Source: an uncultured Myxococcales bacterium (GTDB lineage: Bacteria > Myxococcota_A > Polyangia > Polyangiales > Polyangiaceae). From it: a DNA stretch of 35,228 nucleotides. The notes beneath the pieces are model-generated. The model was given only the letters and a program-made list of their open reading frames with translations. It searched no databases and was not told the DNA's origin. The position numbers were made by a program, and so were the translations under genes. How positions within the stretch are numbered: position 1 is the stretch's first letter; each line of letters starts with the position of its first letter. Below, one piece after another: positions 18,982 to 23,739 of the stretch. The stretch covers positions 1 through 35,228 of the forward strand of contig CALFNG010000501.1 of NCBI GenBank assembly GCA_937902985.1, in the 5' to 3' direction.

Positions 18982-19485
18982 ATGAGAACGGTCCGCTTCA
19001 AGCTCGTGGCGCTCGTCCTTGCCTGCGTCTTACCGGCGGTCGTCGGCGCCGTTCTGCGGTCGCGCGCGGCCGAGCGCGACATGCTGGACCAGGTCGAGCG
19101 GCGCGTGAACGCCAGCAACCGGAGGTTCGGCGAGGAGCTCGACGAGTACCAGGCCAACTCGAAGCTGGCTCTTTCGCTGGCCCAGCACGCGGTGAAGTTC
19201 CAGCAGGCGCTCGCCGCCCGCGACGCAGCCGGCGCGGACGCGATGGTGAAGCGCCTCGCCGACGTGTACGCGCAACGCATCATCCTCGCCTCCGACAGCA
19301 AGGGTGTCGTTCTGGCGCGTGCCAGCGCCGACCGCGGGCCCGCTTCGCTCGGACCGGAGTCGAGCCCGGCGTTCGCCGACCTCCTGGCCGGCAAGGCCCT
19401 CAAGCGCGGGCTCCCCGAGCTACGGACCGGCATCGGCCTGCACTCGGGGCAGGTGGTCGCCGGCACTCCAGGGAACCCGGGCTAG
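18982..19485 (+). CDS. Adenylate-cyclase-like gene, internally deleted
   Basis: A 167-residue open frame. Residues 1-30 are a signal-anchor helix, and 31-140 a helical periplasmic sensor of the kind found at the front of membrane cyclases and kinases (MLDQVERRVNASNRRF, IILASDSKGVVLARASA). At residues 148-161 the text becomes RTGIGLHSGQVVAG, which is the conserved core of class III adenylate/guanylate cyclase domains, then stops six residues later. The rest of the sensor, the second membrane helix, any HAMP and most of the cyclase domain are missing. The join is in frame near 19402-19423. The product cannot be an active cyclase; it might still insert in the membrane. A natural in-frame short protein is possible but unlikely given the motif. 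Confidence 0.7.
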   Translation: MRTVRFKLVALVLACVLPAVVGAVLRSRAAERDMLDQVERRVNASNRRFGEELDEYQANSKLALSLAQHAVKFQQALAARDAAGADAMVKRLADVYAQRIILASDSKGVVLARASADRGPASLGPESSPAFADLLAGKALKRGLPELRTGIGLHSGQVVAGTPGNPG

Positions 19486-19524: not shown

Positions 19525-20592
19525 ATGCTATTTGACTTCATCGTCACCCACCGCGACGAACTCATCGCTCGAACGCGCGCAAAAGTCGCGTCACGATTGT
19601 TTCGACCTACCGAGGTCTCGCTCAACGGCGGCGTACCCCTCTTTCTCGAGCAACTCGCCGAGACGTTACGGCTATCGCCCGCCGGGATGCCCGAGACGAT
19701 GGCGCGAAGCGCAGCGGTGCACGGCGCGGCGCTGCTTGGCCGCGGCTACACCGTGGCACAGGTGGTCCACGACTACGGCGACGTTTGCCAGGCCATCACG
19801 GAGCTGGCCGCGGAGACCGACGCCACGATCAGCACAGACGAGTTTCAGGTCCTCAACCTGTGCCTCGACAATTCGATCGCGGAGGCCATCACCGAGTATA
19901 TGCGGCTCAGGGACCACTCGAGCGCCGAGGCGGAAACCGAGCGCTCGGGGGCCTTCGCGCACGAGCTACGCAACCGAATTTCGGCCGCAATCCTGGGCTT
20001 CACGGTGATCCGAAGCGGACGCGCCCCGCTCAGTGGCAGCGTCGCCGCGCTCGTCGCCCGGAACTTGAAGGCGGTCGCCTCGCTCATCGACCGCGTGTTG
20101 GTCGAGGTGCGCCTGGACTCGGGAGGCGCGCGGCGCGAACGCGTCCATCTGTACGACCTCATCGAAGACGCTGAGGTCGACGGGACGCTTGAGGCGGGTG
20201 TCCACGGCGTCTCGCTGGCGGTGGCCGTGACGGATCTCGGGACCCACGTCGACGGCGACCCGCAGATCCTCGCGGGCGCGCTCGCCAACGTCCTTCAAAA
20301 CGCCTTCAAGTTCACCCCGACCGGCGGGCAGGTCTCGCTCAGGACGGCCGTGCTCGACGGCCGCGTCCTGATCGAGGTCGAAGACCAGTGCGGGGGCCTC
20401 CCCACGGGCAAGGCCGAGGAGCTGTTCGAGGCCTTCAAGCAGCGAGGCGCGAACCGCAGCGGCCTGGGCCTCGGCCTCTTCATCAGCCGCAAGGGAGTGG
20501 AAGCCAGCGGCGGGAGGCTCGGCGTGCGCGACATTCCGGGGACCGGATGCGTCTTCACGATCGACCTTCCGCTGGCGACCGGTGCCCCCTAG
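19525..20592 (+). CDS. Soluble sensor histidine kinase A
   Basis: A 355-residue cytosolic histidine kinase without membrane helices. The N-terminal all-helical sensor (1-135; GYTVAQVVHDYGDVCQAITE) resembles RsbRD-type N-terminal domains by impression. H-box FAHELRNRI with His146 (Arg replaces the usual Pro); N-box LANVLQNAFKFTP (about 253-265); G1 DQCGGLP (287-293); G2 GLGLGLFI (313-320). All catalytic motifs are intact. ATG 19525 is chosen over GTG 19510 because the paralogue at 20704-21774 begins with the same MLFDFI. The two paralogues face each other tail to tail. It starts 39 bases after the deleted cyclase gene and may share its promoter. The partner may be the NtrC-type regulator at 21918-23270. 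Confidence 0.92.
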   Translation: MLFDFIVTHRDELIARTRAKVASRLFRPTEVSLNGGVPLFLEQLAETLRLSPAGMPETMARSAAVHGAALLGRGYTVAQVVHDYGDVCQAITELAAETDATISTDEFQVLNLCLDNSIAEAITEYMRLRDHSSAEAETERSGAFAHELRNRISAAILGFTVIRSGRAPLSGSVAALVARNLKAVASLIDRVLVEVRLDSGGARRERVHLYDLIEDAEVDGTLEAGVHGVSLAVAVTDLGTHVDGDPQILAGALANVLQNAFKFTPTGGQVSLRTAVLDGRVLIEVEDQCGGLPTGKAEELFEAFKQRGANRSGLGLGLFISRKGVEASGGRLGVRDIPGTGCVFTIDLPLATGAP

Positions 20593-20664
20593 AGGCAACG
20601 GCCAGGCGCCTCCCTCGCGCGTGAAAGGCGGGCTGCCGAAAGCGAGCGCGCGTCGCAAACTGCC

Positions 20665-20679
20665 TTGGCGAAATGCCAA
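20665..20679. terminator. Hairpin TTGGC-GAAAT-GCCAA between convergent kinases
   Basis: A perfect 5-bp stem with a GAAAT loop, in the 111-base gap between the two kinase stops. It could serve both directions, but the stem is short and has no T-run. The same sequence family (TGGCATTTTGCCA) appears at 23435-23450 and 32935-32964, so this may instead be a recurring intergenic element. Confidence 0.3.
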
Positions 20680-20703
20680 AACACCCCACCGGGCTGGGCC
20701 GTT

Positions 20704-21774
20704 CTAAACCTCCGCTGGCGTCCGTGCCAGTTCGATCGTGAAGACGCATCCGCGTCCCGGCATGTCCCGGACGCGAAGCTCGCCGCCGATCGCCTCGACG
20801 CCCTTACGGCTGATGAAGAGGCCGAGGCCCAGGCCGCTGCGGTTCGCCCCTCGCTGCTTGAAGGCCTCGAACAGCTCCTCGGCCTTCCCCGCCGGAAGCC
20901 CGCCGCAGCTGTCTTCGATCTCGATCTTGACGCGGCGGTCGACCACCGCGGTGCGCAAGGTCACGAGCCCACCCGCGGGCGTGAATTTGAACGCATTTTG
21001 AATGAGGTTGGCGAGAGCTCCAGACAGAATCTGCGGGTCGACGTCGATGCACACGTCGGGGTCGGTGGCCGTGACGTTCAGCGAAACGCCACGCTCGCTG
21101 GCCTCGAGCATTCCGTCGACCTCGGCCTCCTCGATGAGCTGATGCAGATGGACGCGCCGCGAGGTGGCACTGGCCGAGTCCACGCGGACTTCGATGAGCT
21201 CCCGGTTGATGAGCGTGGCCATGTCAGCCAGGCTCCGCGTGACGACCGACGCTACGCTACCGCCGATCGGCGCGCGCCCGCTCTGGATCACGTTGAAGCC
21301 GAGCTGGGCGCTCGCGATGCGGTTTCGAAGCTCGTGCGCCAGGACCCCGGCGCGCTCGGTGGTGGCCGCAGCAATGGATTGCTCGCGAACCAGCGCGTAC
21401 TCCGTCACCGCGCCCGCGATGGCGCTGTCGAGGCACAGGTTGAGCGTATGAAACTCGCTCGTGCTGATCGTCGCGTTGGTCTCGATGGCCAGCTCGGTGA
21501 TGGCCAAGCAGATGTCACCGTAGCCGTGAACGACCTGGGCAACCGTGTAACCGAGGCCAAGGAGGGCCGCGCCGTACAGCGCTGCCGCCCGTTCCATGCT
21601 CGCGGGGATCTCCGGAGGCGCGACCCGGAGCGTCTCGGCAAGCTGATCGAGGAACAGCGGCACGCCGCTCTCCAGCTCCCGCTCGGTCGCCCGGGGAGCC
21701 AGGCGCTTCGCGACCTTCGCCCGCGTTCGGGTGATGAGCTCGACGCGATTTGCATCGATGAAGTCGAAAAGCAT
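20704..21774 (-). CDS. Soluble sensor histidine kinase B (paralogue of A)
   Basis: A 356-residue cytosolic histidine kinase, clearly paralogous to the 19525-20592 gene over its whole length. Shared features are MLFDFI at the start, the GYTVAQVVHGYGDICLAITE sensor helix, H-box LAHELRNRI with His147, N-box LANLIQNAFKFTP, G1 DSCGGLP and G2 GLGLGLFI. The Shine-Dalgarno AAGAAGGG precedes ATG 21774. It lies 143 bases downstream of the NtrC-type regulator on the same strand, so the two are likely a cognate pair. An 86-base segment (20801-20886) matches kinase A (20410-20495) with only two differences, far above the flanks. The signal sensed is unknown. Confidence 0.93.
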   Translation of the reverse strand: MLFDFIDANRVELITRTRAKVAKRLAPRATERELESGVPLFLDQLAETLRVAPPEIPASMERAAALYGAALLGLGYTVAQVVHGYGDICLAITELAIETNATISTSEFHTLNLCLDSAIAGAVTEYALVREQSIAAATTERAGVLAHELRNRIASAQLGFNVIQSGRAPIGGSVASVVTRSLADMATLINRELIEVRVDSASATSRRVHLHQLIEEAEVDGMLEASERGVSLNVTATDPDVCIDVDPQILSGALANLIQNAFKFTPAGGLVTLRTAVVDRRVKIEIEDSCGGLPAGKAEELFEAFKQRGANRSGLGLGLFISRKGVEAIGGELRVRDMPGRGCVFTIELARTPAEV

Positions 21775-21917: not shown

Positions 21918-23270
21918 TCAATTGCCCTGCACGCGTAACCAGCGGTACAAAGTCGAGAGGTCGATTCCGAGGATCTCGGCGGCGCGCTCTTTGTTGCCCC
22001 CCGTCTCCGTGAGAACCCACGCCGTGTACGCCCGGCTGAGCTGGCGGAGCGTCCACGGCGCGTTGCTGGGAAAAGGCCACGAGCGCGCGGGTGCGCCGTT
22101 CTCGACCGGGGAGAAGGCCTTCTCGTCGAGCACCTCGCTGGTGCCGAACACCACCGCGCGCTCGATGGCGCTTGCGAGTTCCCGCACGTTTCCTGGCCAG
22201 ACCGACTCGATCAACATGCGAAGCGCGTCCTGGCCGATCGCACGAACCGGTGACCGTGGCGCGCGCTGACAGGCCCCCGCGAGAAAGTGCGCCGCGAGCT
22301 CTGGAATGTCGTCGCGCCGGTCGCGCAGAGGCGGAACGGACACCGGCAGCACCGAGAGGCGATAGTAAAGATCCTCCCGGAACCGCCCCTCCTTCACCAG
22401 AGCCGAGAGGTCGCGGTGCGTCGCGGCGATCACGCGAACGTCGACACGCTGAGTGCGGTCGCTGCCAACCGGTCGAACATCGCCGAACTGGAGGACCCTG
22501 AGGACCTTCGCCTGGAGAACCGCGGGCATATCGCCTATTTCGTCGAGGAGCAGCGTACCGCCGTCGGCCTCGGTGAGGAGCCCCCGGCGCGCCTGCACGG
22601 CGCCGGTGAAGGCGCCGCGCGCGTGCCCGAAGAGCTCGGCTTCGAGCAGCGCCTCGGGGATGGCCGAGGTGTTGATCGCCAGGAAGGGACGATGGCTGCG
22701 AAGGCTCCTCGCGTGAATGGCCCGGGCGACGAGCTCCTTCCCGACGCCCGTCTCCCCGGTGATGAGGACCGGGGCACTCGATCCCGCAACGCAGTCGATG
22801 GCAACCTGGAGCGTTCGCATCACCGGGCCCGAGCCCACGAGCTCGTGCTCCCCGGCCAGGCCGGCCGGCAGCTGGGAGGGCCGCGGGCTGTCGACCGAAA
22901 GCAGCCGCCGCTCCTCGAGCGCCGCGCTCACGATCCTGCGCAGATCGTCGCCGTCGCAGGGCTTGACCACGTACTCGAAAGCGCCCCGCTTGATGGCTTC
23001 GACGGCCTGGCGCGGCGCCCCCGCCGCGGTGATGACGATGAACGGCAACCCGGGGTGGCTGCGTTTCACGCGGTCGAGTAGCTCGAGCCCGTTCATACCC
23101 TCCATGCGCACGTCACTGACGACGACGTCGAGCGGCAGCCGATCCATGATGTCGAGGGCTGCCGACGCGTCTGGCGCCAGCTCGCAGGCGTATCCATCGC
23201 TCGAAAAGAGCGCCCGCAGAGTCTCCCGCATCCCGCGGTCGTCGTCGACGATGAGCATCCGGGCCTGCAT
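21918..23270 (-). CDS. NtrC-family sigma-54-dependent response regulator
   Basis: Activates sigma-54 promoters after phosphorylation. 450 residues in three domains. Receiver 1-120: acidic D9-D11, phospho-acceptor D53 (VVVSDVRMEGMNG), Thr81 and Lys103. AAA+ domain about 143-375: Walker A GETGVGKE 173-180, GAFTGA 220-225 for contacting sigma-54, Walker B GGTLLLDEIGDM, then arginine-finger region FREDLYYRLSVL and WPGNVREL. C-terminal Fis-type HTH: NKERAAEILGIDLSTLYRWL. All functional motifs are intact. ATG 23270 is taken; GTG 23282 is possible. It is upstream of histidine kinase B and close to kinase A. The receiver has no visible defect, so it is probably controlled by one or both kinases. Confidence 0.95.
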   Translation of the reverse strand: MQARMLIVDDDRGMRETLRALFSSDGYACELAPDASAALDIMDRLPLDVVVSDVRMEGMNGLELLDRVKRSHPGLPFIVITAAGAPRQAVEAIKRGAFEYVVKPCDGDDLRRIVSAALEERRLLSVDSPRPSQLPAGLAGEHELVGSGPVMRTLQVAIDCVAGSSAPVLITGETGVGKELVARAIHARSLRSHRPFLAINTSAIPEALLEAELFGHARGAFTGAVQARRGLLTEADGGTLLLDEIGDMPAVLQAKVLRVLQFGDVRPVGSDRTQRVDVRVIAATHRDLSALVKEGRFREDLYYRLSVLPVSVPPLRDRRDDIPELAAHFLAGACQRAPRSPVRAIGQDALRMLIESVWPGNVRELASAIERAVVFGTSEVLDEKAFSPVENGAPARSWPFPSNAPWTLRQLSRAYTAWVLTETGGNKERAAEILGIDLSTLYRWLRVQGN

Positions 23271-23739
23271 ACCGGCCCACACTTAACCATTGTCCGGGCG
23301 AGTTGCCGAACGCTTCTTGCGATTTACCGCCACCTGGACCCGTCCGCTTCGGTCCTCGGACCCCCGCCGCGCCCCGCATTCGCAGGCGGTTCCAGCACTC
23401 CGAGCGCCGGCCGCGCCATCGACCGCCCGCTGCGTTTTGCAAAATGCCACCGCGAGTCGACGCACGCATGCGTATAAGCGGATGATCCGAAGGCTGCTCG
23501 GCGTTCGACGCAGCCCGTCACGAGAGCGCCGAATCGGCCGGCGATCGGGATTGACCGCTGGCGATTAACCATCGGCCTCGACCGAGGATCGCTGCGAAGC
23601 GCGGATCCGCTACCGTGACGCCGCGCGGGCCCATGCGAGGACCTGTCGATGAGCCGCTCGTCGGCCTGCCGGGCGCCTGCGCCTCGACGGTTTTGGCGGC
23701 GCGCCAGCCCGTGAACGCGCGCCTCCGAGGAGAATTCCG
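23271..23739. other. Intergenic region upstream of the NtrC-type gene
   Basis: About 470 bases between divergent starts with no credible gene. It contains a copy of the recurring motif at 23435-23450 (reverse strand GTGGCATTTTGCAAAA), about 165 bases upstream of the regulator start, and an ACGCATGCGT palindrome near 23463-23472. A GAGGAGA ribosome-binding site at its end serves the broken lipoprotein at 23740. Confidence 0.55.

Follow-up and report, generated by a model that had tools for sequence, protein, structure and literature searches.

Gene conversion between repeated genes in bacteria is a well-known, RecA-dependent process that has been described for nearly identical genes (PMC5485169), and it also acts between rRNA operons, again mostly on near-identical copies (PMC8022953). 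Repeats can further be made more alike by template switching. In yeast this process homogenises inverted repeats inside coding genes, as found in a study which searched for arms of at least 7 bp with spacers of up to 70 nt, and whose events had arms of 7-16 bp (PMC8604942); quasipalindrome mutations caused by template switching are also known from E. coli (PMC7202029). The locus described below, a pair of histidine kinase genes denoted A and B, shares features with both. As in ectopic conversion (PMC5485169, PMC8022953), there is a short and apparently non-reciprocal tract whose near-identity exceeds the pair's background by far, but the copies in those reports were almost identical beforehand, whereas A and B are only about 72% identical, inverted and 0.3 kb apart. 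With template-switch homogenisation (PMC8604942, PMC7202029) the locus shares nearby inverted arms that are more alike within coding sequence; compared with the yeast events, the tract and the spacing in A and B are several-fold larger.

The window, i.e. the whole stretch of 35,228 nucleotides that was analysed, is an entire contig (C501) of an 8.3-Mb, 563-contig assembly of an uncultured Myxococcales bacterium, and the evidence on A and B comes from this one assembly and one contig of the organism. Kinase A is a soluble histidine kinase of 355 aa, consisting of an N-terminal region of about 140 aa, an H-box (HELRN) and a HATPase_c domain. Kinase B, a paralogue of 356 aa, is convergent with A, tail to tail, and the two genes show 72% nucleotide and 68% amino acid identity over their whole length. 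Each protein contains a single HATPase_c domain, with a G2 box and a GLGLGL motif; the near-identical patch falls in the ATP-lid/G2 region, as given in the preliminary description. The ends of the two genes form an inverted repeat with arms of 319 nt each and a spacer of 161 nt (Table 1). The patches lie inside these arms, and the distance between the facing patches, given earlier as some 300 bases, was measured as 305 nt. Judged from this layout, the arms would be close enough to permit intramolecular pairing. The gene for an NtrC-type regulator adjoins B on its upstream side and on the same strand; its adjacency suggests that the regulator is probably the partner of kinase B. NtrC-type regulators are also found adjacent to the kinase relatives in genomes G150 and G151.

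Table 1. Coordinates of the kinase genes, the near-identical patches, the inverted-repeat arms and the neighbouring regulator gene in the window
Feature	Position	Strand	Evidence and remarks
Kinase A	19525..20592	+	ORF; HATPase_c PF02518, E 8e-20
Kinase B	20704..21774	-	ORF; HATPase_c PF02518, E 7e-20
Putative converted patch in A	20410..20495	+	encodes KAEELFEAFKQRGANRSGLGLGLFISRK, ATP-lid/G2 box; 84/86 match to B
Matching patch in B	20801..20886	-	84/86 match to A
Inverted-repeat left arm (3' end of A)	20249..20567	+	repeat search, 81% complementary
Inverted-repeat right arm (3' end of B)	20729..21047	-	repeat search, 81% complementary
NtrC-type sigma-54-dependent response regulator	21918..23282	-	PF00158 E 2e-65, PF00072 E 7e-28, PF02954

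The extent of the patch reported in the preliminary description was reproduced exactly, with its two differences at 20448 (codon GGC/GGG) and 20490 (codon CGC/CGT), both of them silent. Within it, a sharp core at 20410-20489 in A is identical at 79 of 80 positions to its counterpart at 20807-20886 in B. This core is made up of two exact runs, one of 38 nt (20410-20447) and one of 41 nt (20449-20489); beyond these, the longest exact runs shared by the two genes measure 21 and 19 nt. The edges are abrupt, the mismatch density being back immediately on either side, and the flanks are indeed more diverged than the patch, as had been noted by eye. The statement that the remaining codons use identical synonyms likewise holds for the 28 codons of 20410-20493, bar the two named. 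When the patch was sought elsewhere in the genome as a repeat element, no further near-identical copy was found, the next best match being paralogue C with 80% identity.

Codon usage in 32 local ORFs, with 12,436 codons in total, supplied the null model. Outside the patch, 118 of the 212 A-B codons for shared residues are identical, against 99.5 expected from codon usage, which places A and B near synonymous saturation. Inside the patch the same holds for 26 of 28 codons, against 13.9 expected (Poisson-binomial P 3.2e-7, for a patch chosen after inspection). In 20,000 recodings of B drawn from codon usage, the longest one-mismatch run was 71 nt, short of the observed 80 nt; a plain exact run of 41 nt was reached in 29 of them. 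Synonymous divergence in the patch and in its flanks had been set beforehand as the comparison that could overturn the idea of conversion, and it proved to be far lower in the patch, where 2 of 14 four-fold sites differ between A and B versus 73 of 135 elsewhere (Fisher P 0.005). In a Sawyer-type permutation of the polymorphic columns of A, B, C and the family member G144_a, none of 10,000 permutations reached the A-B one-mismatch run when all polymorphic sites were used, and by the same measure the other five pairs among these four sequences were not significant. GC3 in the patch is high (0.93-0.96). This, together with the conserved protein, raises synonymous agreement, and the four-fold test alone is modest. 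The shortness of the patch and its post hoc choice also count against the gene-conversion reading.

The same genome encodes paralogue C (G000:C128:934-2001), with 65% amino acid identity to A and the same to B, a more distant paralogue D (C531), and an N-terminal-only match on C47. At the four-fold sites of the patch, C differs from A at 9 of 13 and from B at 11 of 13, and the closest relative outside the genome, G144:C53, differs from A at 8 of 12 and from B at 10 of 12. The proportions of identical codons among those shared in the patch columns are unremarkable for A-C (13/24) and B-C (11/24). Relatives carrying the codons common to A and B, which would have spoken for independent conservation, were not seen; C and G144:C53 use ordinary diverged codons. 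Among all 465 pairs formed by 31 family members, the longest two-mismatch run is that of A-B (86 nt), followed by one of 47 nt between kinases which are 81% identical in protein. None of the family's 13 other within-genome pairs, among them a convergent pair in G150 and a tandem pair in G027, showed a conversion patch. With 14 such pairs compared and a patch in A-B alone, the region is no hot spot of conversion across the family. When 183 genomes of the order were searched for orthologues of the two kinases, only G144:C53 exceeded about 51% amino acid identity (64% to B), and in two genomes of the same genus no kinase of this family passed the cut-off. A possible A-C conversion at 20278-20410, where windows show 75-80% synonymous identity, was rejected since the permutation was not significant (600/10,000).

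The near-identity is thus confined to the patch and absent from the other paralogues and relatives, which supports gene conversion between A and B as proposed in the preliminary description. The copying itself is what we infer from this pattern: a single recent, short and non-reciprocal transfer from one arm of the inverted pair to the other, i.e. ectopic gene conversion broadly defined, to which we assign a probability of about 0.88. In such a history, A and B would be old tail-to-tail paralogues that had first diverged to near synonymous saturation, after which about 80 bp of catalytic-domain sequence would have been copied between them in a single event. The two silent differences may stem from later mutation or from incomplete heteroduplex repair. 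At the two codons that differ, C and G144_a agree with A, so that B is the likely changed copy; whichever gene was the donor, B probably either acquired mutations once the exchange had taken place or was left unconverted at the counterparts of 20448 and 20490. A tree built without the patch places A, B, C and G144_a in one supported group (100/100), with the order inside the group unresolved, and gene-specific codon use of A versus B gave no signal on the direction of copying.

The agreement between A and B in the patch might be put down to purifying selection on the ATP-lid/G2 protein combined with strong codon bias, without any exchange. Indeed, the motif is among the most conserved parts of the family and third positions are GC-rich. 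Selection on the ATP-lid protein would yield the same amino acids, but it does not account for the same synonymous codons: C and G144_a keep most of the residues but not the codons, no recoding from local codon usage matched the observed one-mismatch run, and none of the other family pairs comes close to A-B. Moreover, A and B also agree at positions within KAEELFEAFKQRGA that vary among family members, and we regard this explanation as highly improbable. The same low standing is given to selection for a function of the inverted repeat itself, for example as a long hairpin that forms in read-through RNA and keeps the convergent genes apart. For such an RNA a hairpin of very high stability is predicted (-380.7 kcal/mol, z -21), and no ordinary terminator was found between A and B. 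The hairpin, however, follows automatically from inverted homology and would be stable even at 80% identity, the near-identity is confined to the outer part and absent from the inner arms, and no comparable patch occurs in the other convergent pair, that of G150, whose genes are separated by about 2.1 kb and a further gene. Finally, the genome is fragmented and probably metagenome-assembled, with the patch seen on one of 563 contigs, and an assembly artefact comes to mind. A mis-join at a repeat would swap flanks but should be unable to create a second near-identical copy with two differences of its own, and a fold-back chimera would be expected to render the entire arms identical rather than 72% so. 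Since both patches also lie inside distinct, intact ORFs, an artefact is considered very unlikely.

Within ectopic conversion in the broad sense, two routes can be envisaged, and ordinary recombination is somewhat favoured over template switching. The preliminary description proposed hairpin-mediated conversion; the trace left by ordinary RecA-dependent conversion would look no different. RecA pairing is inefficient between sequences that are about 72-80% identical, which counts against the gene-conversion reading. Template switching during replication within a hairpin, leading to quasipalindrome homogenisation, is a possible though less probable route. The arms of A and B are imperfect and closely spaced, as this mechanism would have it, but a tract of about 80 nt and patches this far apart are atypical and exceed the short tracts and short spacers of the described events. 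It is conceivable, though improbable, that the close inverted placement has led to repeated template-switch homogenisation of the ATP-binding core in diverged kinase paralogues. If so, the catalytic parts would be kept alike as sensing parts and specificity drift apart.

Taken as a copying event, the patch is a clear, well-supported and ordinary case of a known process, mildly notable for its clean tract within genes of about 72% identity, and our understanding of conversion is unchanged by it. It does provide a natural example, from a pair of signalling genes, of how a short tract can be converted between bacterial paralogues that are diverged and inverted. It appears that the catalytic core of such kinases is open to local overwriting, and phylogenies based on HATPase_c alone may mislead.

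The N-terminal regions of A and B, about 140 residues, gave no Pfam match. In relatives from the Myxococcota, Acidobacteriota and Betaproteobacteria the region (MLFDFI..HR.ELI.RTRAKVA...; window 19525-19940) is conserved. Conserved across relatives yet lacking a Pfam model, it probably represents an input domain of soluble histidine kinases that has yet to be described. Several loci (G000:C47:2063-2656 (L041), L074-L081 and L083) match the N-terminal part of the kinases alone, over about 190-200 residues, and on this basis the region seems to occur without the HATPase_c domain too.

Immediately upstream of A, an ORF at 18982-19485 has a start reminiscent of a membrane sensor (MRTVRFKLVALVLACVLPAVVGAV...), and just before its stop comes a stretch resembling a nucleotide-cyclase catalytic motif (GIGLHSGQVVAG). 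It has no Pfam match, and looks like what is left of an adenylate/guanylate cyclase gene after an internal deletion. In the convergent kinase-family pair of G150 (L116, G150:C14:100000-112000), which carries no conversion patch, the genes lie about 2.1 kb apart with an XylR_N/V4R sigma-54 activator in between and an NtrC-type regulator beside them. For another family member, G144:C299:18522-19586 (L108), one TAG stop was reported within the family match; its translation ends after 353 aa at ...IFTIDLPK, and the TAG is the natural end of the protein.
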